64,000 nt of DNA, from positions 2,542,001 through 2,606,000 of the forward strand of contig NZ_JAMSHO010000001.1 of assembly GCF_040147005.1 (NCBI RefSeq). The letters are read 5' to 3'. The DNA is from Halomonas sp. H10-9-1. Its GTDB lineage: Bacteria > Pseudomonadota > Gammaproteobacteria > Pseudomonadales > Halomonadaceae. Below, one piece after another: positions 4,776 to 54,640 of this stretch. The notes beneath the pieces were generated by a model. It ran no database searches, was not told the origin of the DNA, and saw only the letters and a program-made list of their open reading frames with translations. A program made the translations under genes and the position numbers. The first letter of the stretch is position 1. Each line of letters begins with the position of its first letter.

Positions 4776-7700
4776 ATGAGTGATGATGACGCTGGCGCAG
4801 CACCAATAACCATCGACAAAGTTCGAGCATCAAAGGCGGGCCATGCCTTTCATGAAGCTTGGGCCGCGCGCTCCGCTCTTGAACTCCTGCCGCCGTCGAC
4901 CGACCTTACCGCTATCACGCTCGAGGGTTTCGATGAGCGAGACGAACAGAGCTTGGGAACTGGTGCGGTCGAGATTGCCGATCTCGTCCGGTACCACGGC
5001 GCCACCGATGTTGCCCGGGCGCATCGAGTCACGGTCGTTCAGTTCAAATACTCGATCGCAAGCGCCGACACGGCAGTGCGAGCTGCTGACTTGGCATCAA
5101 CTCTTGCCAAGTTTGCCGCGACCGATGCCGAGCTTCGGGCGATGCATGGGGATGATCATGTTCTCGCCGTGGTCCGGTATGAATTTGCTACGAACAGGCC
5201 CATCCACGAGAACTTGGGGAAGGCGATCGCAGCGGTTGTCGCAGGCACGCAAGAAGCCGGTGATGTAGCCCGCCAAGCAGGCCAGATCAGTGAAGCTCTG
5301 AAAGAGTATCCCCATCCCTTTGCAGACCTACTGCGGCGAATGGAAATGGTCGGTAGCAAGGGAAGCTTGATAGAGGCTGAGCGTGCGATTTCAACAACGC
5401 TCGCCGCATGGAGCGAGCCAGGGGATCCGGATGCGGAGAAACGCCTGCTGAAGTTGCGGAATCTCATCAGGATCAAGGCCGGTCCCGGTAGCGAGACGGA
5501 CAAACGCGTTGACCGGGTAGCGGTTTTGGCTGAGTTGGAAGTGGAGCACGAGGATCGGCTGTATCCCACGCCCGACGCGTTCCCCGAGGTTGAGGTAGTC
5601 ATTCAGCGCGATGTTCTTGGCGACATTGCGACCCTCGCCCGTGAAGCTGGTCTTCCTCTCGTTGTCCATGCTGCGGGCGGGATGGGCAAGACTGTCTTGA
5701 TGCAAGGCCTCGCCGACCGATTGCGAGCCGATGGCCCCGTGGTGCTCTTCGATGGCTTCGGCGCCGGTCGCTGGCGGGATCCTGCTGACGGTCGGCACCT
5801 CCCGGAAAGGACGCTTGTCCACCTTGCCAATCTCATGGCCGGACAAGGCCTGTGCGACATTCTGTTGCCAGTGGCGGACGTTACGGGCTTGCTCAGGGCA
5901 TTCCGCCGACGGCTCGCTCAATCGGTGGAGACGGCTCGGCGAACTCGCAGCGATGCATGTGTATCACTAGTGCTCGATGCGATCGACCACGCCGGGCTTG
6001 CCGCGCGGGAAACCGCGACATCATCCTTCGCACACCTTCTCATGCGCAGCATCAGCGTAGAGCCAATCGACGGCGTTCGCATCGTCGTATCGTGCCGGAC
6101 TGAACGGCTCGCGCTGGCAACCGGCGATACCTCGCATCGTCCTTTCACAATTCCACTGTTCACTGACGCGGAAGTACGAGCCCTCGTCGAGCGGCGTGTG
6201 CCGGATGCTTCGGCCGACGAGATCGCCGCTTTGCTGACACGGTCAGGTCGCAACCCACGCTGTCTCGACAACCTGATCGCGGCCGGACGGCCGTTTGATC
6301 CCGTGTCTTTCCCTGACGCCCCGGGAGAGCCGCAAGATCTGCTCGACGTGCTGCTTCGCAAGCGTCTCACCGAAGCGCGCGAAACCGCACGCGCTCGTGG
6401 TGCAAGCGATGCGGACATTGACCTCCTGCTCACAGGCATCGCCTTGCTGGCGCCCCCAGTTCCTATTGAAGAGCTTGCTGCGGCTCACGGCTTGATCGCG
6501 GAGCAGGTTGAGAGCTTCGCGGCCGACCTCGCCCCCTTGCTTGAGCGAACGCCACACGGCCTGATGTTCCGCGACGAGCCGACCGAAACCCTGATCCGAT
6601 CGAGCTACGGCGCGAGCCAGGCCGGTCGAGATCGCGTTATCGCCGCTCTCCAAGAACGCCAACTCACTTCAAACTATGCAGCCCGGGCACTGCCCGCGTT
6701 GCTCACCTCGCTACGCGATGCCGATCAGCTCATCCAACTCGCCTACGACTTGCGTGTTCCCCGAGGCGCTTCACAGGTAAGCGCACGCGACATCCGTCTG
6801 TCGCGGATCACTGCCGCGATAGCGCTGGTGGGAGAGCTGAAGCGGCGCGATGATCTTCTCCGTCTGCTGCTGGAAGCATCGCTCGTTGCCGCGGGCCATG
6901 AGCGATCCGACCGCTTCCTATACCAGTATCCTGATCTCACCGCGGTAGCGGGTGACCCAGAAGCCTTGCGACGGCTTTTCGCGACCAATGTTGGCTGGCC
7001 TGGAGGGAAACACGCCGCGCTTGCACTTGTGAACGCCTTCGCCGGTGACCGAGACGAAGCCCGTCGCCATGCTCGGCGATCAATCGATTGGCACAATTGG
7101 GCCGCGCATAGCAAACGTAGCGCGCGCTTTAGCGAATCGAGCACCACAAGGCAATGGGACGACATTGGCTTCGCCTATGTCGAGATGCTGGCGGGCAATG
7201 ACGTGCGCGTTGCAGAGTTCTTCGCCCGTCGAGAGGACGGTGTGGCCTTCGCCAAGTTTAGCGACTTGTTCGATCTTCTGGATCGACACCAGTGTTCGGC
7301 GCATCCGCCCAAGACGCGCGTCGCAACGCGGCTGTTGCGTTGTCGACTGCCATCTCGCGCACTCTACGCCGCCGCGCTTCCATTCGTCGGCCGTGAACCA
7401 TCCCACGCCAGAAGGCTTGTCACGGCACTTGCAGCCGCATCTTCTGGGACTGGCAAAAGCGAAGCCTTGGCGATGGCCAGCGTACTGGCATCGGCCCTGG
7501 CGATAGTGCTCGGCATGGAGAAAGAGGCAGCAAGCATCCTCGCTGGAGCTGCACTTACACCACCAAGCGTTTATGACTATTCCAGTCACTATCCGAGCGA
7601 CCGTGCGATCCACGTGACCGTACTGGCCGCCGGTGTTCGAGCCGCCTTGAGCCGGAAGCGCGCCGCCTTGGCTGACATAGCGCCAGCGGAATTCATCGGG

Positions 7701-10700
7701 TTGGTGCCTGCAAGTGCTCGATCGCGGGGCGCAGCAACCTTCAGTCGGGTGCTTAACCAGAAGCTAGCGGCTCCCAAGTTCGATGGAACTCGGCACCGAC
7801 GGAAGAGGCGCAATGAACTCGACGAGGAAAAACGATCAAATTACTCGCGTGCGCTTGGCAGCCGAATCCTGCCGATGCTGAACTATGCGCAGGATGTCGC
7901 CGACATCATTCGACCGCCAAATGGAAAGGCGCGGGACGAGATGGTGGCCGCGGCCTTTGACCGACTTGTCCATGAAGTCGCGCAGTCATCCGACTATCCG
8001 TATCGGGACGGGAAGGCATATCTCGCGCGAAACGGCTTCCGAGTGATTTTCGACCTTGCTGACTCGTTAGGTGCGCTCAATGCCGCGATGGCGAAGCGCA
8101 TGGTCGAGTGGGCAGCGAGCGCGCCGGGCCTATTCACGCCGGAACTTACCCAGGCGGTTGCTCGACTATCGCGCCTCCCACAGTGCCATGATGCAGCGCT
8201 CCTCCTTGCTGGCCATGTCGAGCGCAAGATCCAACTCGATACCGATGTCGGATCCCGCATCTCATCCTACGGTGACCTCGCTCGCGCAGCCTGGCGAGTG
8301 AGCACCGAAGAGGCTGCGGCCTATTTTCGCCGTGCGCTCGATCTTGCCGAGGCCATTGGATCGGATGACTTCGATCGTACCAATCACTTGCTGGAGCTGA
8401 CCGGCCACTATTCGGGTCCCGAACTTTCGCCGGCGGCGGTGCACACCCTGGCGCGTATCCTCGAACTGAATCAGAACGAGGATGGCAAATTCCCCTGGAC
8501 GGAGTACGCGAAAACGATGGTGCCGATTGCTGGTCGGGCGATGTTGGCTACGTTGGCACGGCTGGATGATCGTGACGCTGCTCGGCTCGGACTGTCGCTC
8601 GGCCCAGCGTTAACTGTCCTCGTTCGTGATTCGAAGCTTTCAGTTGAAGCCGCCGTCGCGCTATTTGGTTTGGCTGCTCCAGTCGAAACGTGGACGTGGC
8701 ACATCTCGGGCTTCGCGTCAGAGGTCATTGGTCGCCTACCTCAAGAGCGGCGGGAATGGTTCTTCGACCTCCTTCTGGTCGAGATCGATCGTGAGGATCA
8801 ACTGTCTCCCGCACGGGAGACGATCGAAGGGCTACATGACCTCGCTGAGCGCAGTCTTCCTGCCACTTCTCATGCTCGAACACGAATTGAGGGCCTGCTC
8901 ACTCGCCTTGGACCCCAATCCGAATCGCGAACGGTCATCTCCCCGTCAACCGCGATGGAGCCGCCGGTCGTCTTCCCGGTGGACCTCACGGACTCGGACG
9001 ACATTGACCGCCAGATTCTCAGCGAGGAGATTGATCAGTCGGGACGGCGCTGGCCGGTTCGGACACTGATTGATCTGGCCAAGCGAGCAAACTCTCCCGC
9101 CGAACGCCTCGGGTTTGTCCGCGCGGTCGTTGAAGCAACCGCTGCCACGCTTGCCGACAAAATCCACGCGCTGGACGACTACTTGGAGGAATGGGGTAGG
9201 TCGTCGGCGGCTATGCGCGATGCTCTGCCTGACTTGGGACTGCGCCTTGCCACCAAGCACGCCGCCGAACTTGCCAGTTCAAGCACCGACGCGTGGGGCA
9301 ACTGGCGGGGGCTGGAGCAGCATTTTCATGCCGACCGTGCAGTTCTTGTCGAGCACGTAGTTGCAGCGCTCCGGAGCACCGCGGACAGTCTTGGTGGTAA
9401 TGCCTGGCTCGCACTCGCCGCGAGACTGGCGTCTGACGTCAGTGCCAGCGCCATTGCGGAAGGCCTCGAACGGTTTCTGGCGAACACAGATGAAAAGCTG
9501 CCGTCCGAAGTGGGGGACGGGCCGTGGGACGCGCGTTTTACGGTTCCGTCTGACGAGGCGACATTCGTGGCGGGACTCGTGTGGGCGAGGCTCGGCCATC
9601 CCATCGCAGCAATGCGCTGGCGCGCAGCCCATGCGGTGCGGCGCCTGGTGGTGGCCGGACGGTTCGATGTCATTGAACGACTGATCGAGCGATTCGGGTC
9701 TGCTTCGAGCTTGCCGTTCGGCGATGTGAAGCTGCCTTTCTACTTAATGCATGCGCAGCTCTGGCTGTTGATCGCACTCGCTCGCGTAGCGAAAGACGCT
9801 GCTTCCGCGTTTGCCTCCCATCGCGCGTTCTTCGAGCGAATCGCCTTTTCCGCTGAGTTCCCGCACGTTGTCATGCGTGCGTTCGCGATAGACGTACTTC
9901 GCGAGCTTGCGCCTGCACTCGCACCCCAAGAGCGCGAAGCTCTGATCGCCAAGCTTGGCCTCGCAAACCGGTCGCCCTTCCCATCGGCTCCTCGAACCGA
10001 CTACCGCGAGTTCCGGTATGCGCCTAGGCCAGACGCCTCGCCGCGCCCAGAGGATGGCTTCCACCTCGACTACGACTTCAACAAATATCAGGTCGAGCGT
10101 TTGTGCCACGTCTTCGCTTGTCCAGGCTGGGAGGTGGAGGACCGCATCAGCGCGTGGGTGCGGCGTTGGGACACAACCGTGCGAGGAATGCATGATTACC
10201 CGCGTGGCAGAAGCGATGACGCATCTTGGTCTTCGGGGTATGTTCCGGATCGAGATCCGTACGGGGGATATCTCGGATGGCACGCACTCATGCTTGTCGC
10301 CGGTGAGTTGCTGGCGACACGGGCGGTTGTCGGCGAAGACTGGGGCGGTGATGCTTGGGCCGCGTTCCTGGGGGAGTACACGCTGTCAAGAAGCGATGGT
10401 CTCTGGCTTGCCGATCTCACCGATCCGTTTCCGCTCGACCTTACCAAGGAGGCGGACATGCCTATGCCGGAGAGCGGTGAGAGAGGCACCGTTCGCGAAG
10501 ACAGCAATCTGCTGGCACCGTTGCTCGGCTTACTGGACGGCAAGGCGGCGACGGATTGGCTTCCGGTCGCAGGACGTTGGTCGATCGGGCGAGACACAAC
10601 TGTCACGCTTCAAAGCGTACTGGCGAATGCCGGCGATGCGCGAGCGGTGGTCTTGACCGTGCTGTCAGCTGAAGCATTCTTTAGATGGTTGCCGGACGAT

Positions 10701-11354
10701 GAAGATGAGATTGCCCGTCACTTCGGCGGCGACGGTCACACGGTTCAGCCATGGGTCGCAAAGACACCGAACACCGAGCGCCAGCTCGATCGGCATGATC
10801 CTTATGGTGCCGCCACCGCACTCGACAGGCCTTTCCCATCGGATTGGACGCGAGAGCTGTTGGGGACAGTCGCGGATGATGAGGTAGTCCGCAGTTGGTC
10901 AATCGGCGGGAGAACAGCGTATCGCGCAGAAGCTTGGGGTGCTGAGGGCGGACGGGGTGAATACGCCTGGAGCGAGACTGGGTACCGCTTGTTCGTCGGT
11001 CGTGACGCATTGCTTTCCCTGCTCAAGGTGTCCGAGCGTAGTCTTGTCGTCGCACTCACGCTCCAGAAATACCATAAAGGGAAATCGAGCGGACGTGCCG
11101 GAGACTCCAGCGGCTTTACCCATCGGTCGCTGGTGGTTGTCATCGATGAACGTGGCCAGATTTGGTCGCCGCGAGGCCTCTCTCGACAAGCCAAGGGAGC
11201 TCTTGCGACGCTCGACCCCGATCAGCGACGCGATTTCTATCCGCGGTTCCGCGCAATCGCGGGCCTGCCCGATGAGCGGCGCCGTCGGCGCGACAACCTA
11301 CTGGATCTCGACGGCATTGACTTGGCGTTCATCAAGAATCCGAATGGAAGTTAA
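4776..11354 (+). CDS. Giant STAND NTPase with N-terminal predicted nuclease, Avs-like antiphage sensor
   Basis: The 2192-residue protein has three visible parts. Residues about 15-110 look like a PD-(D/E)XK or DUF4297/Cap4-type nuclease: E50, E66, D69 and the Q89-F-K91 signature after a predicted helix 'AGHAFHEAWAARSALELL'. Residues about 270-560 form a P-loop STAND NTPase with Walker A GGMGKT (301-306, K305) and Walker B LVLDAID (D401, D404). The remaining 1600 residues are helical and repeat-like, as in the sensor arm of Avs proteins, and end in a distinct domain with 'YLGWHALMLVAGELL'. By analogy, ligand binding by the C-terminal arm would oligomerise the NTPase and switch on DNA cleavage. 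No close family was identified. It stands alone, on the plus strand, next to abiE. The ATG at 4776 has only a weak ribosome site. Confidence 0.7.
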   Translation: MSDDDAGAAPITIDKVRASKAGHAFHEAWAARSALELLPPSTDLTAITLEGFDERDEQSLGTGAVEIADLVRYHGATDVARAHRVTVVQFKYSIASADTAVRAADLASTLAKFAATDAELRAMHGDDHVLAVVRYEFATNRPIHENLGKAIAAVVAGTQEAGDVARQAGQISEALKEYPHPFADLLRRMEMVGSKGSLIEAERAISTTLAAWSEPGDPDAEKRLLKLRNLIRIKAGPGSETDKRVDRVAVLAELEVEHEDRLYPTPDAFPEVEVVIQRDVLGDIATLAREAGLPLVVHAAGGMGKTVLMQGLADRLRADGPVVLFDGFGAGRWRDPADGRHLPERTLVHLANLMAGQGLCDILLPVADVTGLLRAFRRRLAQSVETARRTRSDACVSLVLDAIDHAGLAARETATSSFAHLLMRSISVEPIDGVRIVVSCRTERLALATGDTSHRPFTIPLFTDAEVRALVERRVPDASADEIAALLTRSGRNPRCLDNLIAAGRPFDPVSFPDAPGEPQDLLDVLLRKRLTEARETARARGASDADIDLLLTGIALLAPPVPIEELAAAHGLIAEQVESFAADLAPLLERTPHGLMFRDEPTETLIRSSYGASQAGRDRVIAALQERQLTSNYAARALPALLTSLRDADQLIQLAYDLRVPRGASQVSARDIRLSRITAAIALVGELKRRDDLLRLLLEASLVAAGHERSDRFLYQYPDLTAVAGDPEALRRLFATNVGWPGGKHAALALVNAFAGDRDEARRHARRSIDWHNWAAHSKRSARFSESSTTRQWDDIGFAYVEMLAGNDVRVAEFFARREDGVAFAKFSDLFDLLDRHQCSAHPPKTRVATRLLRCRLPSRALYAAALPFVGREPSHARRLVTALAAASSGTGKSEALAMASVLASALAIVLGMEKEAASILAGAALTPPSVYDYSSHYPSDRAIHVTVLAAGVRAALSRKRAALADIAPAEFIGLVPASARSRGAATFSRVLNQKLAAPKFDGTRHRRKRRNELDEEKRSNYSRALGSRILPMLNYAQDVADIIRPPNGKARDEMVAAAFDRLVHEVAQSSDYPYRDGKAYLARNGFRVIFDLADSLGALNAAMAKRMVEWAASAPGLFTPELTQAVARLSRLPQCHDAALLLAGHVERKIQLDTDVGSRISSYGDLARAAWRVSTEEAAAYFRRALDLAEAIGSDDFDRTNHLLELTGHYSGPELSPAAVHTLARILELNQNEDGKFPWTEYAKTMVPIAGRAMLATLARLDDRDAARLGLSLGPALTVLVRDSKLSVEAAVALFGLAAPVETWTWHISGFASEVIGRLPQERREWFFDLLLVEIDREDQLSPARETIEGLHDLAERSLPATSHARTRIEGLLTRLGPQSESRTVISPSTAMEPPVVFPVDLTDSDDIDRQILSEEIDQSGRRWPVRTLIDLAKRANSPAERLGFVRAVVEATAATLADKIHALDDYLEEWGRSSAAMRDALPDLGLRLATKHAAELASSSTDAWGNWRGLEQHFHADRAVLVEHVVAALRSTADSLGGNAWLALAARLASDVSASAIAEGLERFLANTDEKLPSEVGDGPWDARFTVPSDEATFVAGLVWARLGHPIAAMRWRAAHAVRRLVVAGRFDVIERLIERFGSASSLPFGDVKLPFYLMHAQLWLLIALARVAKDAASAFASHRAFFERIAFSAEFPHVVMRAFAIDVLRELAPALAPQEREALIAKLGLANRSPFPSAPRTDYREFRYAPRPDASPRPEDGFHLDYDFNKYQVERLCHVFACPGWEVEDRISAWVRRWDTTVRGMHDYPRGRSDDASWSSGYVPDRDPYGGYLGWHALMLVAGELLATRAVVGEDWGGDAWAAFLGEYTLSRSDGLWLADLTDPFPLDLTKEADMPMPESGERGTVREDSNLLAPLLGLLDGKAATDWLPVAGRWSIGRDTTVTLQSVLANAGDARAVVLTVLSAEAFFRWLPDDEDEIARHFGGDGHTVQPWVAKTPNTERQLDRHDPYGAATALDRPFPSDWTRELLGTVADDEVVRSWSIGGRTAYRAEAWGAEGGRGEYAWSETGYRLFVGRDALLSLLKVSERSLVVALTLQKYHKGKSSGRAGDSSGFTHRSLVVVIDERGQIWSPRGLSRQAKGALATLDPDQRRDFYPRFRAIAGLPDERRRRRDNLLDLDGIDLAFIKNPNGS

Positions 11355-17351: not shown

Positions 17352-17903
17352 TCAGAACGACTCGGCAACGGCCAATGCGGGGGCATCGGCAGCGTCGTCG
17401 GCAGCATCGGCGTCGGGCTTGGAAGGCTCCGGTGCCGAGGCTTGCTGCGCGGCGGGCGCGTCGGACGTCACAGGGACTTCCGGGTCGCGCTCGTCGGTCT
17501 CGGTCGGCTTGGGTTCGGCCTTGTAGACGAGCTTGCCGTCGACCTTGATCCAACTGACGAACAGCAGGCGGGCCTTGAGGCTCACCCCCTGCTCGCCGGC
17601 ACGCTTGCCCTTGGAGTAGGTGAAGGTGTCGGCCCACAGGTCGCCCAGGCGGAAGCCGATCATCACCTTCTTCTCGGCGTCGACCGCCTGAATGCAGCGG
17701 CGCACCAGGTGCTGCGCTTCCGAACCCGATACGCGCGTGTCGAAACGCACATACGAGACGTCATCGCTGGGACCGTTCAGAGCCGCGATGTCGCAGGCCA
17801 GGAACGCATCGCCTTTCTTGGGCTTCACTTCGCGGATGCGATTGAGATACCCGAGGCCGGTGATGTGCAGATCGAAGTAGGACTTTTCGGTGGAAGTGGT
17901 CAT
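17352..17903 (-). CDS. DUF3577 / STY4534-family ICE replication protein
   Basis: The 183-residue protein (MTTSTEKSYFDLHITGLGYLNRIREV...) matches the family named STY4534 ICE replication protein (DUF3577). The first 125 residues form one domain with 'KKGDAFLACDIAALNGPSDDVSYVRFDTRVSG' and 'FRLGDLWADTFTYSKGKRAGEQGVSLKARLLFVSWIKVDG', reminiscent of an OB-like single-strand binding fold. The last 55 residues are an Ala/Asp/Pro-rich acidic tail ending in ESF, as in SSB-like proteins that recruit partners through their tails; that parallel is inferred. The start is at 17903 with CAGGAG. Its leader contains copy A of the three-hairpin RNA element. Confidence 0.75.
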   Translation of the reverse strand: MTTSTEKSYFDLHITGLGYLNRIREVKPKKGDAFLACDIAALNGPSDDVSYVRFDTRVSGSEAQHLVRRCIQAVDAEKKVMIGFRLGDLWADTFTYSKGKRAGEQGVSLKARLLFVSWIKVDGKLVYKAEPKPTETDERDPEVPVTSDAPAAQQASAPEPSKPDADAADDAADAPALAVAESF

Positions 17904-17942
17904 GGTGAATCTCCTGGGAACAATGAGGCGGAGACACACCCG

Positions 17943-17979
17943 ACCCAAGGCGGGGAAGGTGTGGAACCCCCGCGTGGGT
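17943..17979 (-). promoter_or_regulatory. Hairpin upstream of the DUF3577 start
   Basis: ACCCA/TGGGT and inner CGGGG/CCCCG segments pair, 40 bases before the start codon. It is weaker than its relatives in the same operon. Confidence 0.3.
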
Positions 17980-18059
17980 TGATGGAACAGCTTGGTGGCA
18001 TCGCCATCGAGAACCGATGGCCGTTCGCGCATGGATGCCGGTGCGAACTGGTGTGATCA

Positions 18060-18137
18060 ACGCGGTCGGAACCGCGTCGCAGCCTTGAAGATCGTGGCTG
18101 CCTGGGCATGTCGCTGACGGACGTCAGCGGAACATGG
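18060..18137 (-). ncRNA. Three-hairpin repeated RNA element, copy A
   Basis: Read on the minus strand there are: hairpin 1, GCTGAC/GTCAGC (18113-18128) flanked by CATG on both sides; hairpin 2, GCAGCC/GGCTGC (18079-18101) with an 11-base loop ending CTTCAA; hairpin 3, ACGCGGT/ACCGCGT (18060-18077) with loop TCCG. It fills part of a 344-base gene-free stretch, 157 bases upstream of the DUF3577 start. Copies B and C share the layout with paired changes. It resembles the published description of STAXI RNAs (UNCG loops, near ssb and topoisomerase genes), but identity was not tested. Confidence 0.6.
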
Positions 18138-18247
18138 CCGGAAGCGTGGCGCCGGGATGGCGCGCGGGCGAGCGGCAATCGGCACTCGCGGCTGTCCACA
18201 TTGCCGGGAAGAAAGAGGCTCCCGGAGCGGGGGCCAGGGATGGGCGG

Positions 18248-18613
18248 TCAGTTACCGCTGGGCGTGGGAAGAACCGCCTGCAGCGACAGGTGTGTCGTGG
18301 TAGCGGACACGTCGAGGTCGTCCTCGCTGCGCAGGATGCGCGCAAACACGCCCTCCTGCGGATCGAAGAACTCGCCAAAGTCATCGCCGCCGAACTCGGC
18401 ACGCGCCAGTTCCCACCAGTCGTCGAAGCCATCGACATCCGGGTTGCAGCCGGCGGCATAGGCGATGGTCTTCTGGCGACCATCGGGTCGGCGCTCGCCG
18501 CGCTCGGCCAGGAAGTACACGCCCTGATCCTTGACCAGGATGACGCGGCATTGATTCGCCACCGCTTCGGCGAGCACGGGCCGCAGCTCCGTGCCTTTGA
18601 ATCGAACAGTCAT
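18248..18613 (-). CDS. DUF3085 family protein
   Basis: The 121-residue protein begins MTVRFKGTELRPVLAEAVANQCRVILVKDQGVYFLAERGER and continues with 'GFDDWWELARAEFGGDDFGEFFDP', the pattern of DUF3085, found on plasmids and ICEs. It is small, acidic and soluble. No enzymatic motif is evident and the function is unknown. The start at 18613 is preceded by TGGAG at 8 bases; earlier in-frame ATGs lie in DNA with hairpins and are rejected. It is co-oriented with the neighbours and separated from DUF3577 by the 344-base stretch with RNA copy A. Confidence 0.7.
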   Translation of the reverse strand: MTVRFKGTELRPVLAEAVANQCRVILVKDQGVYFLAERGERRPDGRQKTIAYAAGCNPDVDGFDDWWELARAEFGGDDFGEFFDPQEGVFARILRSEDDLDVSATTTHLSLQAVLPTPSGN

Positions 18614-18643
18614 GGGTGTGATCTCCAGGGGGCAGGAAGAGAG

Positions 18644-18668
18644 GCTTCCCGCCGCGAGGGCGGGAAGC
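18644..18668 (-). promoter_or_regulatory. Hairpin upstream of the DUF3085 start
   Basis: A perfect 10-bp stem GCTTCCCGCC/GGCGGGAAGC with a 5-base loop, 31 bases before the start codon. Confidence 0.5.
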
Positions 18669-18678
18669 TGCTGAGAGG

Positions 18679-19476
18679 TCAGTGCCGGACAGCCTTGCGA
18701 CTCGACAGGCACTGCACGCGGATGCGCCTCCAGCTCCCGTCGTCGATCAGCCGTTCCAGCGTCTCGCCGAGGATGTCGAAGAACACCTCATCGACCCGTT
18801 CAATCAGCTCGCCGTCGCGGTGCAGCTCCACCGCGTAGAGGTCGAGGCCACGCTCATACAGCACGGTGACGCGACCCTGGAACTTCATCGTGGCGACGGT
18901 GAAGCCGATGGCCGGTGGCGTGCGGATGATGTCGGCGGGCAGCGGATCGACCCAGGTGATGTCCCGCGCACTGGCATCCACCAACAGGTGGGTGATGCGC
19001 CGGAAACCATCGGGAGCGGGCAACTGCTCCAGTTGGACGATCAGTTCCTGCAGCTCGGGGCAGCGCGGCTCGGGGATCGGCAGCTTCGCCGGTGCGGAAC
19101 CGAGCACGAACCGCTTCACCGTGTAGGGCTGGCCGTCGGCGGTGAACTCGGTCTGCTCCTCGGGCGTGTCCGCCCGCTGACCGTCGAAGCGGCGTCTGAC
19201 ATAGGGTTCGACCTGCACCTTGGCGCCCTCGTCGGGCACTTCGGTCACGAGGGTGCGATCGAGCACCGCGAACTCGGCCCGTGCCGTCTTGACGATGATG
19301 GCCTCGTCGGTGGTGGCGATGACCTTGCCCTCGAAAGGCTTCGGGTCGATGTGAAAGCCCAGCGTCGAAACCTTGGGCTGGCCGTCGAAGATGTTGAACT
19401 TGAACGAACGGACGTTGGAAGGCACATGACCGACGACGAGCGTCGGCATCTGTGCGCGGATGGCTTGGGTATCCAT
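18679..19476 (-). CDS. Conserved ICE protein of unknown function (265 aa)
   Basis: The protein starts MDTQAIRAQMPTLVVGHVPSNVRSFKFNIFDGQPKVSTLGFHIDPKPFEGKV. It is rich in beta-strand-like segments, has no membrane helix and no recognised catalytic motif. The middle part (KRFVLGSAPAKLPIPEPRCPELQELIVQLEQLPAPDGFRRITHLLVDASARD) and the C-terminal part (DGELIERVDEVFFDILGETLERLIDDGSW) look like two small domains. The start at 19476 follows AAGGAG. In-frame sequence upstream overlaps RNA copy B and is not coding. Its place among ICE maintenance genes is the only clue to its role. Confidence 0.6.
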   Translation of the reverse strand: MDTQAIRAQMPTLVVGHVPSNVRSFKFNIFDGQPKVSTLGFHIDPKPFEGKVIATTDEAIIVKTARAEFAVLDRTLVTEVPDEGAKVQVEPYVRRRFDGQRADTPEEQTEFTADGQPYTVKRFVLGSAPAKLPIPEPRCPELQELIVQLEQLPAPDGFRRITHLLVDASARDITWVDPLPADIIRTPPAIGFTVATMKFQGRVTVLYERGLDLYAVELHRDGELIERVDEVFFDILGETLERLIDDGSWRRIRVQCLSSRKAVRH

Positions 19477-19497
19477 GGGGAGACTCCTTGTGGCAAC

Positions 19498-19534
19498 CAA
19501 GGGACTCCCGCCCGCAAGGGAGGTCGATCCCTTG
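19498..19534 (-). promoter_or_regulatory. Hairpin upstream of the 19476 start
   Basis: CAAGGGA/TCCCTTG (7 bp) encloses CTCCC/GGGAG. It ends 22 bases before the start codon. Confidence 0.5.
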
Positions 19535-19582
19535 AGGGTGAGGTGGATGGACGCGGCATGCGTCCGGCGAAAGAAACGACCA

Positions 19583-19654
19583 GCGCGGCGGACCGCACCG
19601 CAGTCTCGAAGGTCTCGACTGCCTGGGCATGCTGCCGGCAACGCCAGCGAACAT
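19583..19654 (-). ncRNA. Three-hairpin repeated RNA element, copy B
   Basis: On the minus strand: hairpin 1 is GCTG/CAGC with one internal mismatch (19631-19648) and flanking CATG; hairpin 2 is GCAGTC/GACTGC (19600-19622); hairpin 3 is GTGCGG/CCGCGC with loop TCCG (19583-19598). Hairpin 3 has a T-G pair on the minus strand that would be an A-C mismatch on the plus strand, so the minus strand is the likely RNA. It lies 107 bases upstream of the 19476 start. Confidence 0.6.
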
Positions 19655-19767
19655 GCGGCCAGCGTGCGGCACATGGCGGCGGCCGTCCGCCGGGAATCGG
19701 CAATGCGCCGGCACCGCGTTCCGCGAAAAAGAAGAGCCCCGACGTGGGGGCTCGAATGGGTTGCGGG

Positions 19768-20484
19768 TTACTCGTCGTCGTAGAGCGTCAGTCCGTCCAG
19801 CACGGGCGCGTCGGCATCGAAGATCAGCAGCCGCACGTCGGCGAGCGCAGCCAGGTGCAACACTTCCACGAGGGACTCCGGCATGCCCTTGGCCCGGTGC
19901 TCCTGCCGCAGCTCTTCGGCGGTGATGCTCTCGACATGCTGCAGGTTCGCATCCGTCCAGGGCGTGGCGATCAGCTTCATGCCGACCGCCGGGCTGTAGG
20001 GAATGCGGAAGGCCACGAACAGAAAACCGCTCGGCGTGGCGATGTCCGCCAGTTCGGCGAGGAAGCGACCGGCCTCCTCGGTGATGTGCGCCGAACTGAT
20101 TTCCCAGGCACGGCTGTAGAACCCGGTCTCGAAGCGCAGGCGGCGTACCACCTCGCGCGCGGCTTCCTCGGAGTAGGTATCGCCGACGTGCAGCGGCTGG
20201 CCGGCTTCTTCGGCCATGACGGCGTAGACGAGGTTTCGGGCGATGCCGTGGCTGGGGCACTGCGCGTCCAGCTCGGGCGGCACGTTCTGGCCCTCGGTGA
20301 TCAGCGCGAAGTCGTCGCAGAAGACGCAGGCATGGCGCTCGACCTGGCTGTCCGGCAGGTGCGACTGCGAGATGTGCAGCGGCAGATAGCTCAGCGGGCA
20401 GTCGTCGTCGTAGGAAATCGCCAGCAGCCGTTGCACGGACAGGCCATCGTAGCCGCGGACGAAGGGGTTTTTGAAATGGGACAT
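19768..20484 (-). CDS. DUF5983-like ICE protein
   Basis: The 238-residue protein begins MSHFKNPFVRGYDGLSVQRLLAISYDDDCPLSYLPLHISQSHL and ends 'VEVLHLAALADVRLLIFDADAPVLDGLTLYDDE'. The C-terminal 'LADVRLLIFDADAPVLDGLPLY'-like block is the part I associate with DUF5983, so that label is tentative. One pair of cysteines (ACVFCDD) and an isolated C in CPSHG could bind metal. There is no membrane segment. The start follows a GGAGGA just upstream. The gene lies in the ICE core run, with RNA copy B after it and a hairpin before it. The function is unknown. Confidence 0.6.
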   Translation of the reverse strand: MSHFKNPFVRGYDGLSVQRLLAISYDDDCPLSYLPLHISQSHLPDSQVERHACVFCDDFALITEGQNVPPELDAQCPSHGIARNLVYAVMAEEAGQPLHVGDTYSEEAAREVVRRLRFETGFYSRAWEISSAHITEEAGRFLAELADIATPSGFLFVAFRIPYSPAVGMKLIATPWTDANLQHVESITAEELRQEHRAKGMPESLVEVLHLAALADVRLLIFDADAPVLDGLTLYDDE

Positions 20485-20513
20485 AGGATTCCTCCAGCAG
20501 AGGATGGCCGAGG

Positions 20514-20533
20514 CAATCCCCTGCCGGGGATTG
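20514..20533 (-). promoter_or_regulatory. Hairpin upstream of the 20484 start
   Basis: A perfect 8-bp stem CAATCCCC/GGGGATTG with loop of four bases, 30 bases before the start codon. Confidence 0.5.
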
Positions 20534-20610
20534 AACCCCAGCGAGTGGATGAAGTGGCAGCCAGTCAGCAGGCCGCGGCGTCGGGCCGCCCTGGTGGCGG
20601 GCGGTGCAGG

Positions 20611-20637
20611 TCAGTGGAAGATGGTGATTCGGGACAT
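20611..20637 (-). CDS. Very short ORF with ribosome site and leader hairpin (8 codons)
   Basis: The sequence encodes MSRITIFH and then TGA. An AGGAG site stands 5 bases before its ATG and the operon's typical hairpin (20659-20694) lies 22 bases upstream, exactly as for the full-size genes around it. After the stop, the next frame runs TDLHRPPPGRPDAAAC to a TGA at 20565, so this may be a peptide of about 24 residues broken by a one-base change, or a leader peptide for the 20484 gene. It is too short for any statistical support. Confidence 0.3.
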   Translation of the reverse strand: MSRITIFH

Positions 20638-20658
20638 GGCCGCTCCTGCGAAAAGAAG

Positions 20659-20694
20659 GAGGGACATGGCCCCGAACGGGGACGCATGTCCCTC
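20659..20694 (-). promoter_or_regulatory. Hairpin upstream of the 8-codon ORF
   Basis: The 10-bp outer stem GAGGGACATG/CATGTCCCTC and inner CCCC/GGGG with a 4-base loop make this one of the strongest hairpins of the series. Confidence 0.5.
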
Positions 20695-20734
20695 GTGGGG
20701 TGGGATGAAAGAACGGTGGGTTGCCAGGCGCGGC

Positions 20735-21127
20735 TCACCAGCCGTTGTAGTGCAGCGTGAGGTCGGCGATGACCTGGCGCCGTTCCAGATCGAGGCCGCC
20801 GAAGTCGGACAACCCCTCGAAGCCGCAACGCTTGAGCATCGCGCCGCCCTCGCGGGAGTTGTAGAAGCTCACCATCGCGGACAGGAACATGCGTTGACCG
20901 CTGCTCAGCACACCCAGGGCGTCGTTGAGCATCAGCATGTTGGGCCGCAGGTCCCACTTGGTCGTGGCACGCTGCAGACCTTCGCGTGTGCCGTCGCCGA
21001 ACCACTCGTGGCCGGCGATCTGCGCGCCGCGCTTCCAGGCCTCGAAGAAGGCTTGCGGTGCAGCGTCGAAGTGCGCCTGTTCCAGCGCCATCTGATCGAG
21101 CACGTCTTCGGGTAAAGACAGATTCAT
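20735..21127 (-). CDS. Conserved ICE protein of unknown function (130 aa)
   Basis: The protein starts MNLSLPEDVLDQMALEQAHFDAAPQAFFEAWKRGAQIAGHEWFGDGTREGLQRATTKWDLRP and ends 'GGLDLERRQVIADLTLHYNGW'. It is predicted to be mostly helical and soluble, with several conserved-looking Trp residues. No domain was recognised. The start at 21127 has AAGGAG seven bases upstream and is only 25 bases from the preceding gene, so the two are probably translated from one message. Unlike its neighbours it has no leader hairpin, simply because the spacer is too short. Confidence 0.65.
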   Translation of the reverse strand: MNLSLPEDVLDQMALEQAHFDAAPQAFFEAWKRGAQIAGHEWFGDGTREGLQRATTKWDLRPNMLMLNDALGVLSSGQRMFLSAMVSFYNSREGGAMLKRCGFEGLSDFGGLDLERRQVIADLTLHYNGW

Positions 21128-21152
21128 GAGAGAACTCCTTGAAGGGTGGGAA

Positions 21153-21389
21153 TCAGGGGTGAGCGCGCTGTGTCCAGGCATGGGTATCCAGGGCACGCTG
21201 TGCTGCGAGGTGGGTCGGGAAATACTCGACGGACTCCCGCGATACCGGGCCTTCGTCGTCTTGCGTGCCGATGTAGTGGCCGGCCGCGCTGCGCAGCACC
21301 TGTAGCGGCAGACGCTTGCCGGTCCAGGCCAGCGCCAGCGCACCACTGCGTACTGCGGTTGCAGAGGAAGATGCGGAAGGTTCAGACAT
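21153..21389 (-). CDS. Small conserved ICE protein (78 aa)
   Basis: The product MSEPSASSSATAVRSGALALAWTGKRLPLQVLRSAAGHYIGTQDDEGPVSRESVEYFPTHLAAQRALDTHAWTQRAHP begins with a serine/alanine-rich tail and then a compact region with 'LPLQVLRSAAGHYIGT' and 'SRESVEYFPTHLAAQRAL'. That pattern is common in small ICE proteins of unknown role. The start at 21389 follows AAGGAG; the upstream 26 codons in frame are judged non-coding. RNA copy C lies 135 bases before the start. Confidence 0.6.
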   Translation of the reverse strand: MSEPSASSSATAVRSGALALAWTGKRLPLQVLRSAAGHYIGTQDDEGPVSRESVEYFPTHLAAQRALDTHAWTQRAHP

Positions 21390-21523
21390 GCCGTGCTCCT
21401 TGGTGGGTCGAGGAGCACGCATCCCGTAGAGGATGGAGTTCCCCTCGGGTGGTTGAGAAAAGTGCATCGTCGCCAGGCCGGCGAGCGTCCGCGGTGGGCG
21501 ATGCGAAGCGGACTGGATCGGTC

Positions 21524-21600
21524 AACGCGGCGAACCGCGTTGCAGTCTTGAAGACCGGGACTGCCAGGGCATGCCGCTGACGACTGTCAGCAACGCATGG
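21524..21600 (-). ncRNA. Three-hairpin repeated RNA element, copy C
   Basis: On the minus strand: hairpin 1 GCTGAC/GTCAGC (21576-21591) with flanking CATG; hairpin 2 GCAGTC/GACTGC (21542-21564), 11-base loop; hairpin 3 AACGCGG/CCGCGTT (21524-21541) with a TTCG loop. It lies within a 779-base gene-free stretch between topB and the 78-aa gene. Confidence 0.6.
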
Positions 21601-22168
21601 CGTGAGGATGGGCGCGAAGCATGGCTGCCGTCGCAGGGAAAACCGAATCGCGGACGGTCCGCTTTAGGGCAGGCCCGCGTCACGGGACAAGGCAAGGACC
21701 AGGGCGCCGAAGGCCACGCGGGCCTTCGGCTGGAGAGGAAGGAAAACCACCTGTGGGCTGCGTCAGCGCGGGCCGTCGTCAAAGCCGTTCGCTGCGTCAG
21801 CAATCGCACCCGGCCCGTTTCGTGGCTGGGGCCGGAAACCTCTGGCGTGCATCCACACACAAAGGGAGCCCGATGTTTCGCCGGCGGGCACCGGCACGGA
21901 ATACCCTCGGCCCAAGGGGCCTCCTCACGGCTCGCGCGGCGGCAAGGCGTCAGGAAGCCCCTCATGACCGAGGCAAGGCACACCGATCAAGGGAATGGCG
22001 GCGGGCGCGATTCGTGGAGCAATGACCTTCTCGCCCCGTCGCCCGATGGCGGGCAGACGGGGCGCGCACACCGTTGCAGAAGGAGACGCGCGCTTTGGAG
22101 TCCCGCGCGGTGCGGGACGTTTGCCTCGCCGCCAGTGAAGTGGCCGGCGCGGCAGGGGGAAGCGAGGA
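21601..22168 (-). other. Gene-free stretch after topB with three strong hairpins
   Basis: No credible gene was found. Three hairpins follow the topB stop on the minus strand: GTCCCGC/GCGGGAC (22100-22118), a 9-bp CGCCCCGTC/GACGGGGCG with an inner GCCC/GGGC stem (22032-22064), and a perfect 10-bp GCCGAAGGCC/GGCCTTCGGC (21706-21730). None is followed by a T run, so they look like RNA structure rather than simple terminators. Copy C of the repeated RNA lies just to the left. Confidence 0.4.
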
Positions 22169-24184
22169 TCAGGACGCCTTGGAGGTAGCGCGCCGCTTGC
22201 GCGGTGCGCTGCGCCGGCCCGTCGGGGACTCGATCGGCAACGTGCCCTTGCAGTCCGGGTAGCGCGAGCAGGACCAGAACGCGCCGCTCTTGCCCGTGCG
22301 CTGCTGCATCGGTGCGCCGCACTGTGGGCAGGCCGGCGTCGGCGGCAGCTTGAGCGAGAGCGTCGCGCCGCGGTACTGCTGCACGAGCTGACCGACCCAC
22401 ACGGACTGCTTCTCGATGAAGGTGTCCAACGCCATCTGGCCGGCCTCGATCATGTCGAGCGCCTGCTCCCACACCGCCGTGGTGCCGGGGTCGGCGATGG
22501 CCGAGGGCACCGCGTCGATGAGCGTGAATGCCGCGTCGGAAGCGCGGACGGCGCGGCCTTTCTTGACCAGGTAGCCGCGACCGATCAGACCGTTGATGAT
22601 GTTGGCGCGTGTCGCCTCGGTGCCGATGCCGGTGGTATCTCGCAGCTTCTGTTTCAGCCGCGGGTCGGTCACGAACTTGGCGACGGTCTTCATGGCCTTG
22701 ATCAGCTCGCCCTGCGTGTAGGGCTTGGGCGGCAGCGTCTTCAGCGCCTTGAGATCCACCTTCCCGACCGGGCAGGACAGGCCCGCATGCAGCGCCGGCA
22801 GCACCTGGCTGCGCTGCGCATCCTCGCCATCGGCATCGTCCGGCCCCGGCGTCGCCAGCACCTCGCGCCAGCCGGTGACGGCGATCTGCTTGCCCACGGC
22901 CGCCAGCGACTGACTGCCGCACGAGAACTGCGCCACCGTCCGGTCGAACTCATGGTGCGGGAGGAACTGCGCGAGGTAATGGGCGCGGATCAGCCGGTAG
23001 ACGGCCAGTTCCTTCTCGTTCATGGCCGACAGGTTGGCGGGCTCCAGCGTCGGGATGATGCCGTGGTGAGCCGTCACCTTGCCGTCGTTCCAGGCGCGCG
23101 AACGCTGGTTGCGGTCGAGCTGGCCGATCAAGGGCCGCAGGCTGGGATCGGTGGCGAGCAGTGCATCGAGCACCGCCGGCACTTCCGCGAGCATGCTTTC
23201 GGGCAGGTATCCCGAGTCGCTGCGCGGATAGGTCGTCGCCTTGTGCGTCTCGTACAGCGCCTGCGCGATGTCCAGCGTCTCCTGCACGTCGAGGCCCAAC
23301 TGCTTGGAGCACACCTCCTGCAGCGTGCCCAGGTCGAACGGCAGCGGCGGTGCCTCGCGCACGCGCTCGGTGTCCACCGACACGACCTGCGCATCGCGTG
23401 CGGCGCGAATGCAATCCGCAGCCTGCTGCGCCACCGGCTGCTGAAGGCAGCGACCCGCTGCATCGGTGCTGCCTTCGGGCGGTATCCAGCTCGCGGTGAA
23501 GGACCGGCCGGCATGGGATAGCAGCACGTCCACGGCCCAATACGGCACAGAGACGAAGCGCGCGATCTCGCGATCACGATCCACCACCAACTTCAGCGTC
23601 GGCGTCTGCACGCGCCCCACCGACAGCACGCCGGTGTAGCCGGCCTGCCGACCTAGAAGCGTAAACAGCCGGCTCAGGTTCATGCCGATCAGCCAGTCGG
23701 CACGCGAGCGGGCCAGGGCCGAGTAGTACAGCGGCAGCGTCTCGGCGGACGGCTTGAGCGCACCCAGCGCCTTGCGGATCGACGCATCGTTGAGCGCCGA
23801 CAGCCACAGGCGCTGAATCGGCCCGTGGTAGCCGCACAGGTCGATGATCTCGCGGGCGATCATCTCGCCCTCGCGGTCGGCGTCGGTCGCTATCACCAGC
23901 TCGCCCGCCTTGGCGACGAGCTGCTGCACGACCTTGAATTGCGCCGCGGTCGCCGCCTTGGGCTCGACACGCCAACGCTCAGGAAGAATGGGCAGTTGCT
24001 CGATGGCCCAGCGCTTGTATTGTTCGCCGTAGCCTTCGGGCGGAACCGCCTCCACCAGATGACCGATGCACCAGGTCACGACGACACCCGCGCCGCTGTA
24101 GCAGCCGTTGCCGCGTTGACCGGCACCCAGCACACGGGCGATGTCCTTGCCCTGGGACGGCTTCTCGCACAGGAACACGCGCAT
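22169..24184 (-). CDS. topB: DNA topoisomerase III (type IA)
   Basis: The 671-residue protein relaxes or decatenates DNA through a transient tyrosine-DNA bond. The Toprim domain starts MRVFLCEKPSQGKDIARVLGA and contains the metal-binding DADREGE. The catalytic tyrosine is Y319 in TTYPRSDSGYLP. The SVGRVQTPTL motif lies near residue 190. The C-terminus has a four-cysteine zinc ribbon (CPQCGAPM...CSRYPDCKG). ICE-borne TopB of this family probably resolves replicating or transferring element DNA. The start has AAGGAGG. A palindrome of the operator series lies 208 bases upstream, between ssb and topB. The sequence is complete. Confidence 0.95.
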   Translation of the reverse strand: MRVFLCEKPSQGKDIARVLGAGQRGNGCYSGAGVVVTWCIGHLVEAVPPEGYGEQYKRWAIEQLPILPERWRVEPKAATAAQFKVVQQLVAKAGELVIATDADREGEMIAREIIDLCGYHGPIQRLWLSALNDASIRKALGALKPSAETLPLYYSALARSRADWLIGMNLSRLFTLLGRQAGYTGVLSVGRVQTPTLKLVVDRDREIARFVSVPYWAVDVLLSHAGRSFTASWIPPEGSTDAAGRCLQQPVAQQAADCIRAARDAQVVSVDTERVREAPPLPFDLGTLQEVCSKQLGLDVQETLDIAQALYETHKATTYPRSDSGYLPESMLAEVPAVLDALLATDPSLRPLIGQLDRNQRSRAWNDGKVTAHHGIIPTLEPANLSAMNEKELAVYRLIRAHYLAQFLPHHEFDRTVAQFSCGSQSLAAVGKQIAVTGWREVLATPGPDDADGEDAQRSQVLPALHAGLSCPVGKVDLKALKTLPPKPYTQGELIKAMKTVAKFVTDPRLKQKLRDTTGIGTEATRANIINGLIGRGYLVKKGRAVRASDAAFTLIDAVPSAIADPGTTAVWEQALDMIEAGQMALDTFIEKQSVWVGQLVQQYRGATLSLKLPPTPACPQCGAPMQQRTGKSGAFWSCSRYPDCKGTLPIESPTGRRSAPRKRRATSKAS

Positions 24185-51013: not shown

Positions 51014-52371
51014 CTATTCATCACCCAAGGCCACGGCGGCTTCCACCAGCCCGGCCAGGTTGAAGCGCTCGGGCAGCTTGCCGGCCACGGCGAGCTCCAC
51101 GCGCTCGGCGATGGCGTCCAGGCCCACCTGCTCCAGCACCTCTCCGGCGAAGGCCAGGGTCAGCAGCCCGCGGGCGGTCTGGCGATCGATGCCGCGGCTG
51201 CGCAGGGTGTAGATCGCCTCCTCGTCGAGCTGGCCTGTGGTGGTGCCATGCGAGCACTTGACGTCGTCGGCGTAGATCTCGAGCTCGGGCTTGGCATCGA
51301 TCTCGGCGCGGTCGGAGAGCAGCAGGTTGGCGTTGCTCTGGAAGCCCTCGATCTTCTGGCTATCGCGCTTGACCACCACCTTGCCGTTGAACACGCCATG
51401 GGCGCGATCGTCGAGGATGCCCTTGTAGTTCTCGTTGGAGAAAGTATGGGGCGCGTTGTGGTTGGCCAGGGTATGGCTGTCGACATGCTGGCGACCCTGG
51501 CCGTAGAACAAGCCGTAGAAGTCGCAGGTGGCGTTCTCGCCATTGAGTTCACTGATCAGGTCGGTGCGCACCAGGGCACCCCCCAGGTTCAGGTTGAACG
51601 AGGTATAGCGACTGTCGCGGGCCTGCTCGACATGGATGGAGGCCACGTGCAGGTCGGACAGCGGCGCCTCCTGCAACTTGTAGTGGGTGAGGATGGCGTT
51701 GCGCTCGAGGATCACCTCCTCCACCAGGTTGGTGAAGTTGGCGGCACCCTCCTCGCCCACATGGTGCTCGACCAGGGTCGTCTGGCTGCGCCCGCCGGCC
51801 TGCACCAGGATGCGCGGATGGCTCATCACCGGCCGCTCCCCGTTCCTGGACAGGAACTGCAGGATGATCGGCTTCTCCACCACCGTGCCCGGCGCCAGGC
51901 GCAGTACGGCCCCCTCTTCCATGAAGGCGGTATTGAGGGCCGAGAAGGGTGAGAACTCGACCCCGGTGAGACGGCCCAGTGGGCCACCCACCGCCTCGTG
52001 ATTCTCGGCCAGGGCCGCCGAGAGCGGCTGCAGGGAGACGCCTTCCGGCAGGTCATCGAAACGCGACAAGGCCGGGGCGAAGACGCCATCGACGAAGGTC
52101 AGGCGATACGCATCGATGGGCAGGGTCAGGGCCGCCGCGCTGGCCTGGGAGAACTCGGCATCGCCGGCCAGGGCAAAGTCGCCCCGGGCGATGGCGCGCA
52201 CGTCGGTGTATTTCCACGCCTCGTCGCGGCGCGTGGGGAACCCCATCGCCTCGAAGCGAGCCTCACCGGCCTGGCGCCGTGCGGCGATCCAGGTCGGCTC
52301 CTGTCCTCTCGTCTCGAGGCGACCGGCGCGGAACTCGGCCAGACGGTCGAGAAAACGCTGTGTCTCTTCAC

Positions 52372-52375
<4 letters not shown>
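51014..52375 (-). CDS. sufD: SufD, Fe-S scaffold component
   Basis: The 453-residue protein begins MSEETQRFLDRLAEFRAGRLETRGQEPTWIAARRQAGEARFEAMGFPTRRDEAWKYTDVRAIARGDF, the usual SufD N-terminus, then a beta-helix core ('EVILERNAILTHYKLQEAP', 'TCDFYGLFYGQGRQHVDSHTLANHNAPHTFSNENYKGILDDRAHGVFNGKVVV') and a C-terminal helical end with 'ADDVKCSHGTTTGQLDEEAIYTLRSRGI'. The conserved histidine and cysteine of the SufBC2D cluster site are in that last motif. It overlaps sufC by 4 bases (ATGA) and partners with it in the complex. Confidence 0.95.
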
Positions 52376-53124
<749 letters not shown>

Positions 53125-53197
53125 CGTGATTACCTTTTCGGTTCGGGCGGGCCGCCACCGCGGCCCGACACGGTGAATTCATTGCCTGGACGGCGAC

Positions 53198-54640
53198 TCA
53201 GCCCACGGAGCCCTCGAGGGTCACCCTGAGCAGCGCCTCGGCCTCGACGGCAAACTCCATGGGCAGCTCCTGGAAGACATCCTTGCAGAAGCCGTTGACG
53301 ATCATGCTCACCGCATCCTCCTCGGAGATGCCGCGGCTCTGGCAGTAGAACAGCTGGTCCTCGCCGATCTTGGAGGTGGTGGCCTCATGCTCCACGGTGG
53401 CGGTGCTGTTGCCGATCTCCTGGTAGGGAAAGGTGTGAGCGCCGCATTTGTCGCCGATCAGCAGCGAGTCGCACTGGGTGAAGTTGCGCGCCCCCTTGGC
53501 CCGCGGGCCGATCTTCACCAGGCCACGGTAGGACTGGTTGCTGCGGCCGGCGGAGATCCCCTTGGAGATGATGCTGGAGCGACTCCCCTCGCCGATATGG
53601 ATCATCTTGGTGCCGGTATCGGCCTGCTGACGGCCGTTGGTCACCGCCACCGAATAGAACTCGCCCTTGCTGTCGCGGCCACGCAGCATGCAGGAGGGGT
53701 ACTTCCAGGTGATGGCGGAGCCGGTCTCGACCTGGGTCCAGCTGATCCGCGAGCGGTCGCCGCGGCAGTCGCCGCGCTTGGTGACGAAGTTGTAGATGCC
53801 GCCCTTGCCATCCTCGTCGCCGGGATACCAGTTCTGCACGGTGGAGTACTTGATGTAGGAGTCGTCCAGCGCCACCAGCTCGACCACCGCGGCATGCAGC
53901 TGGTTCTCGTCACGCATCGGCGCCGTGCAACCCTCCAGGTAGGAGACCTGGGCACCCTCCTCGCAGATGATCAGGGTGCGCTCGAACTGGCCGGTATTCT
54001 CGGCGTTGATGCGGAAATAGGTGGAGAGCTCCATGGGGCAGGTCACGCCCTTGGGCACGAAGACGAACGACCCATCGGTAAACACCGCGGAATTGAGGGC
54101 CGCGAAGTAGTTGTCGGTCTGGGGAACCACGCTGCCCAGGTACTGCTTGACCAGCTCCGGGTGCTCCCTCACCGCCTCGGAGATGGAGCAGAAGATCACA
54201 CCGGCTTCGCCGAGTTTCTCCTTGAAAGTGGTCGCCACCGAGACGGAGTCGAACACCGCGTCCACCGCCACGCCGGCCAGGGCGGCCCGCTCATGCAACG
54301 GGATACCCAGCTTCTCGTAGGTCTCGAGCAGCTTGGGGTCGACCTCGTCGAGGCTCTGGGGGCGATCCTCGGGGCGCTTGGGGGCACTGAAGTAGGAGAT
54401 CGACTGGTAGTCGATGGGAGGATAGTCGAGATGCGCCCAGGAGGGCGGCGTCATCTTCAGCCAGGCACGGTAGGCCTTGAGGCGCCACTCGAGCATCCAC
54501 TCCGGCTCGCCCTTCTTGTTCGAGATGAAGGCGATAGTGTCCTCGTCGAGGCCGGGCGGCAACGTGTCGCTCTCGATGTCGGTCACGAAGCCTTCCTTGT
54601 AGTCGCGACGGACCAGCTGTTCCATTTCCTGACTTGCCAT
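53198..54640 (-). CDS. sufB: SufB, Fe-S scaffold component
   Basis: The 480-residue protein [61 protein letters not shown] is SufB. It carries '[59 protein letters not shown]' and the conserved '[23 protein letters not shown]' with the cluster-site cysteine and '[23 protein letters not shown]'-type end. It builds new clusters together with SufC and SufD. It is the first structural gene of the operon, behind the Rrf2 regulator (72 bases). Confidence 0.95.

Follow-up and report, generated by a model that had tools for sequence, protein, structure and literature searches.

A leader RNA repeated ahead of genes of an integrative and conjugative element: radC RNA in Halomonas sp. H10-9-1 and its candidate pseudoknots

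The radC RNA (Rfam family RF01754) is a catalogued yet uncharacterised family. Table 1 of Weinberg 2010 (PMC2864571) enters it as RNA with 'Y', as cis-regulatory with 'y' and as a switch with '?', in Proteobacteria. The family was catalogued in 2010, and the literature searched yielded no paper with this RNA as its subject. Passages of the same report describe STAXI, another RNA motif, as a pseudoknot of which two or, more often, three copies stand in tandem, and raise for STAXI as well the question of whether RNA or single-stranded DNA is the acting form (PMC2864571). Here, we analyse a stretch of 64,000 nucleotides from Halomonas sp. H10-9-1 (contig NZ_JAMSHO010000001.1, positions 2,542,001 to 2,606,000; hereafter the window), in which three copies of radC RNA stand ahead of genes of an integrative and conjugative element (ICE). 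The comparison of these copies with their relatives points to an element of RNA sense, with three nested hairpins, a loop pseudoknot (PK1) and, in most classes of copies, a second pseudoknot formed by the helices P4 and P5. With a probability of about 0.55, the element would be a cis-acting leader RNA which controls translation and joins several ICE genes in one regulon.

When the whole window was searched against Rfam with cmscan, all three copies were assigned to radC RNA on the minus strand. The gathering threshold of RF01754 is 40 bits, and the E values refer to the whole 64-kilobase window:

17998..18146, minus strand, radC RNA copy A (RF01754, 131.4 bits, E 5.8e-25)
19508..19665, minus strand, radC RNA copy B (RF01754, 96.4 bits, E 5.3e-17)
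21464..21609, minus strand, radC RNA copy C (RF01754, 121.3 bits, E 1.1e-22)

Each copy spans model positions 1-149 of 149, and the three are the sole gathering-level Rfam matches in the window. Given these matches, the element is not a new family. A permissive scan of 17500-22200 (E up to 10) returned 7 matches, of which those beyond radC all stayed below their family thresholds. The genome has four copies in all. The one outside the window (G000:C1:2505732-2505882, about 36 kilobases before the window start) is the best-scoring of the genome at 137.4 bits; the protein encoded downstream of it groups with those of the RadC type, and the representative of that class has a RadC JAB domain.

An earlier sequence-only reading of this DNA had drawn three minus-strand copies of a three-hairpin element, and both the sequence and the alignments bear this out, with the hairpins in the same order. 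CATG flanks hairpin 1 on both sides in all three copies. In hairpin 2, the GCAGCC/GGCTGC of copy A is replaced by GCAGTC/GACTGC in the other two copies, while hairpin 3 keeps its stem as sequence and loop differ, with a U-G pair in copy B. The distances of 157, 107 and 135 nucleotides from the hairpins as then drawn to the downstream ATGs, which end at 17903, 19476 and 21389, were reproduced; the element as matched by the model reaches about 60-75 nucleotides further toward the start codon. Thus the description of a structured element with compensatory changes, repeated ahead of ICE genes and near ssb and topB, holds.

For comparison, a loose pattern scan of genome contigs was used, which matched at least 120 stretches, many of them in unrelated phyla. 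From these, 40 loci were chosen by organism title, and the 39 genomes behind them were searched in full for the family. It was found in 30 of the 39, in line with the expectation of further copies in related ICEs. Our own model was built on 11 copies with P1-P3 as the sole pairs encoded, which left only the sequence to align the 3′ half. It gave 188 matches in 94 sources; 170 were kept, as 18 either were truncated or hit a place already counted in an overlapping locus, and 152 of the 170 are distinct when flanks are included.

The structure was tested as the helices P1, P2, P3, P4 and P6 together with two pseudoknots, on the 150 best matches, which reduce to 113 distinct rows. Pairing is seen in 90.5% of 4833 alignment cells, compared with 81.4% (standard deviation 0.3) in shuffles, and none of 500 shuffles was as high. 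When the partners were slid along the alignment, pairing fell to 26-45%. The P1-P3 helices have 94.5-99.6% of their cells paired, and changes on both sides occur in all six inner pairs of P1, in four of the six pairs of P2 and in all seven of P3. Two unpaired segments, CCCA and CUUCAAG, are almost invariant in the alignments. PK1 is a pseudoknot in which 4 bases of the P2 loop pair with 4 bases downstream of P3. It is paired in 98.9% of cells, the copy-B class included, with both-side changes in two of its four pairs, and its variants are GAUC/GAUC, GGUC/GACC and GACC/GGUC. In the window, PK1 was read from the sequence as follows:

18055..18093, minus strand, copy A PK1: GAUC 18090-18093 with GAUC 18055-18058
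19578..19614, minus strand, copy B PK1: GACC 19611-19614 with GGUC 19578-19581
21520..21556, minus strand, copy C PK1: GGUC 21553-21556 with GACC 21520-21523

The second pseudoknot is of the H type. In it, P4 (GUUCGC/GCGAAC) crosses P5 (GCAUCC/GGAUGC), and several double variants are found. Copies A and C carry it in the window:

17997..18048, minus strand, copy A H-type pseudoknot: P4 18043-18048/18023-18028, P5 18034-18039/17997-18002, 12/12 Watson-Crick pairs
21464..21513, minus strand, copy C H-type pseudoknot: P4 21508-21513/21487-21492, P5 21499-21504/21464-21469, 12/12 Watson-Crick pairs

A per-sequence search recovers this pseudoknot, with 6+6 pairs, in 97 of 150 distinct copies, against 0-10% in dinucleotide shuffles by class. 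It is present in 37 of 38 copies ahead of STY4534-type genes and in 24 of 24 ahead of RadC-type genes, and in 8/10 and 16/30 of the next two classes. P5 was also tested per sequence, because the alignment-wide count is blurred by register shifts: a perfect 6-base-pair P5 is found in 74 of the 85 non-B copies which have P4, compared with 3.6% when the tails are shuffled. The predicted fold of the copy-A leader (17901-18146) holds P1-P4, P6 and a hairpin at the ribosome-binding site; its energy of -103.1 kcal/mol corresponds to a z of -3.96 against 200 shuffles. Taken together, the comparison suggests that the catalogue entry understates both the size and the knotting of radC RNA.

The mismatches tolerated in the stems bear on the question of which strand acts. 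Read on the sense strand, the 3013 cells of P1-P3 and PK1 comprise 2746 Watson-Crick, 200 G-T, 22 A-C and 45 other combinations, with 80 of the 200 G-T cells supplied by a single P3 pair. Inferred on a tree, 35 events lead from Watson-Crick to G-T and 15 to A-C (p = 0.007); the bias is weaker when distinct site types are counted (G-T 21, A-C 14). This excess of G-T over A-C points to the strand of mRNA sense. The sequence-only reading had allowed for RNA or for folded single-stranded DNA. The first is the likelier, and the second is disfavoured by the mismatch bias and by the proximity of start codons, so the element more likely acts as RNA than as folded DNA.

A start codon on the same strand, with a Shine-Dalgarno-like sequence, was located for 166 of the 170 kept copies. 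The element ends 38-135 nucleotides before it in 165 of the 170, and one more copy overlaps its start. The proteins downstream of these 166 copies fall into 14 groups, and the distance from element to start is characteristic of each:

STY4534-type, 42 of 166, start about 90 nucleotides after the element
265-residue kind, 37 of 166, start about 42 nucleotides after the element
78-residue kind, 34 of 166, start about 67 nucleotides after the element
RadC-type, 29 of 166
185-residue family, 10 of 166
226-residue family, 5 of 166
others, 9 of 166 (one group of 2 and seven singletons)

Wherever a locus has at least two copies, all lie on one strand (41/41 loci, mixed in 0/41). Six plasmid records have a radC RNA match, and four of them were examined in detail. 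In three (L229, L230 and a Rhizobium plasmid), about the last 35-40 nucleotides of the gene before it lie within the model match. L229 and L230 are plasmids with annotated radC genes, and the overlapped gene is a transfer gene, an arrangement which suits action on a polycistronic mRNA. By position, radC RNAs thus appear to be leaders of ICE genes, either 5′ or intercistronic, at a fixed short distance from the start.

Between the element and the gene, the aligned leaders of a class conserve a segment that complements the ribosome-binding site; the sequence of this segment differs from class to class. In the window, the corresponding hairpins are predicted at:

17904..17941, minus strand, ribosome-binding-site hairpin of the copy-A gene, ends adjoining AUG (minimum-free-energy fold of 17901-18146; class 0)
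19487..19502, minus strand, ribosome-binding-site hairpin CCUUG/CAAGG of the copy-B gene (class 1 leader alignment)
21388..21422, minus strand, ribosome-binding-site hairpin of the copy-C gene, extends into AUG (sequence and class 2)

Local folds pair the ribosome-binding site with upstream sequence in 35/35, 24/25, 25/25 and 23/23 distinct leaders of the four main classes, which makes 107 of 108, and in 8 of 10 leaders of the fifth (185-residue) class. Predicted accessibility in the four main classes, given with the shuffled value, is 0.05/0.24, 0.17/0.35, 0.26/0.36 and 0.13/0.21. Furthermore, the segment that pairs with the site can also pair upstream with another partner, and more strongly than in shuffles, with a mean z of -2.72, -2.57, -1.24 and -2.48 in these classes. 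The signal is strong in classes 0, 1 and 3, weaker in 2 and absent in 4, and controls show part of it. Among the radC-led leaders of plasmids, z is below -1.9 in five of six.

How could such a leader control translation? We infer action at the level of RNA, a two-state platform at the ribosome-binding site and a shared trigger. The folded radC domain would be the sensor or binding site, and its state would pick between two pairings downstream, one of which would cover the ribosome-binding site while the other would free it. One signal, perhaps a protein of the ICE or of the host, perhaps a small molecule, would then set the translation of several DNA-handling and transfer genes of the ICE jointly. 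A more specific version is put forward tentatively. Here, the doubly pseudoknotted sensor would define an RNA regulon of about four transcripts, for the replication protein, RadC and unknown proteins, which might be co-translated on an ICE-specific or transfer-specific signal; in the copy-B class, the second pseudoknot would have been lost, and the response may be a different one.

Several results weigh against translational control by a doubly knotted leader. In the copy-B class (class 1), the H-type pseudoknot is found in 3 of 31 copies, which is the level of chance, and in class 5 in none of 4; at least four of the 97 H-type pseudoknots (three from class 1 and one from L210) consist of non-homologous stems. 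The P5 columns of the alignment are paired in 77.0% of cells, a figure blurred by register shifts between classes, and the event count for P5 is inflated because its register was chosen per sequence. In addition, copies within one class are related and not independent. The sequence-only reading had proposed a check for significant covariation, and our own tree-based test gave a weak outcome. Only three pairs reach E <= 0.05. Two of them belong to P1 and PK1, respectively, and the third is no base pair and reflects an alignment artefact. The pairs of P4 and P5 have E values of 4.8 and above. Closer to the gene, the 185-residue class is without signal (z 0.03; accessibility 0.44 compared with 0.40 in shuffles), and the sixth radC-led plasmid leader, of the gene of L228, has a z of +1.17. 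The controls were 17 leaders of other genes in the same elements, one of them with a misplaced start. Their ribosome-binding site is also paired in 14 of 17, six of these 14 have a z below -1, and their mean z is -0.90. The pattern is thus stronger in radC-led leaders and not confined to them.

The behaviour of the controls also matters for a simpler explanation, in which radC RNA is a plain protein-binding site that represses or stabilises the mRNA, has no built-in switch, and is followed by ribosome-binding-site hairpins that are general in GC-rich ICE genes. Such a site would suit the presence of one domain on several transcripts of an ICE, the near-invariance of the unpaired CCCA and CUUCAAG and the frequent pairing in control leaders; against it, the alternative-partner z of the radC-led classes ranges from -1.24 to -2.72, compared with the control mean, and we consider it unlikely. 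Only a little less doubtful is an action on transcription or RNA processing, either by a cis antiterminator of the PUT or EAR type or by an element for cleavage or stability of long ICE transcripts. PUT and EAR are antiterminators which act in cis, and between 13500 and 33400 terminator-like hairpins are indeed found at ten sites on the gene-sense strand and one on the opposite strand, and co-oriented ICE genes flank several of them. However, these 11 sites in total are not above the shuffled 9.3 +/- 2.9, for which reason antitermination is kept merely as a rival; moreover, one of the ten sense-strand sites falls inside copy B, and a single antiterminator would need fewer than three copies per 3.5 kilobases. 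As for processing, ICEclc, a related ICE, has a long and apparently cleaved transcript (PMC2892462, PMC9286271): rapid cleavage is described for the transcript ORF68241-81655, and gaps in reverse transcription polymerase chain reactions were read as possible cleavage sites (PMC2892462). In the parts of these two papers covered by a term search, radC was not mentioned.

The remaining explanations have far less in their favour. Folding as single-stranded DNA during transfer, for example as a single-strand promoter like Frpo, would agree with copies of a locus sharing one strand, and genes of these kinds occur in the leading regions of conjugative elements. Frpo folds in its template strand. Folding of the template would give A-C mismatches on the sense strand, whereas G-T exceeds A-C there both in cells (200 to 22) and in events. 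A template-strand promoter is therefore disfavoured, and action as folded DNA in general, with folding of the sense strand as its remaining form, is very improbable. The sequence-only reading had also thought of STAXI RNA, in view of ssb and topB nearby and of loops of the UNCG type. That identity can practically be dismissed. No STAXI match appeared at any threshold tried, neither at the gathering threshold in the window nor at E up to 10 in 17500-22200, with the STAXI family presumably present in the Rfam library searched, and RF01754 scores two to three times its own threshold. The copies are, besides, 1.5-2 kilobases apart, whereas STAXI is tandem.

Outside the title-selected genomes, radC RNA is rare. 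With the own genome counted, it occurs in 3 of 97 unselected relatives (2/97 above the family cut-off) and in 3 of 370 unselected members of the class (2/370). The E. coli genomes searched gave no match. On viral contigs, eight stretches fit the pattern, and the three scanned with the model R2 (L130, L131, L136) gave no match either. A partial DNA match was seen in MT835540.1, an unannotated record filed as 'Bacteriophage sp.'. The Rhizobium plasmid (L231, CP021372.1, 82.6 bits with model R2) is alphaproteobacterial.

The minus-strand neighbours of the three copies comprise topB, ssb, a PFL_4669-family ICE protein, an ICE-type ParB and ParA. On these gene names, we take the element to be an ICE of the PFGI-1 / ICEclc type. 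According to Pfam and NCBIfam, copy A precedes an ICE replication gene of the DUF3577 / STY4534 family (17352-17903), which is followed by DUF3275. Copy B precedes a gene for a 265-residue protein (18679-19476), then DUF3085, and copy C one for a 78-residue protein (21153-21389). These last two proteins have no match in Pfam or NCBIfam, and both kinds recur downstream of radC RNA in many ICEs. To the left of the ICE genes, an open reading frame of 2192 codons lies on the plus strand at 4776-11354; to the right of the ICE part, sufD and sufB (51014-54640) represent ordinary chromosomal functions.

How, then, does the locus relate to described systems? It shares with radC RNA as catalogued (RF01754) the full-length model match, the position before genes, the occurrence in Proteobacteria and a copy ahead of a RadC-type gene. 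It departs from the structure line of cmscan, which leaves PK1 and P5 unpaired and places the GCG of the 3′ strand of P4 in another helix. Since cmscan prints no pseudoknots, Rfam may nevertheless hold PK1 and P5. Moreover, in Rivas 2020 (PMC7657543), radC is among the RNAs for which CaCoFold is reported to find additional covarying pairs relative to both Rfam and ZWD. In view of these pairs, PK1, P4 and P5 are not claimed here as a first report. The fuller structure names exact base pairs for mutation.

STAXI resembles these copies in its ICE-type neighbourhood with ssb and a topoisomerase, in its pseudoknots and in its UUCG loops, yet it is a different family which does not match them and whose copies stand in tandem. 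Single-strand promoters of the Frpo type likewise recur as structured elements ahead of genes that belong to a conjugative element, whereas the mismatch bias of radC RNA favours the sense and not the template strand. If the leader does control translation, ICEs of the PFGI-1 / ICEclc type would coordinate their DNA-handling and transfer genes at translation via an RNA domain common to these genes. Such control would come on top of the regulation of transcription described for ICEclc. For such a function, translational riboswitches and protein-binding mRNA leaders form the natural class of comparison. They, too, have a conserved folded domain, and the mutually exclusive pairings around the ribosome-binding site which follow it in them are predicted for the radC leaders as well; what sets the radC leaders apart is that one domain would serve several operons of a single mobile element.

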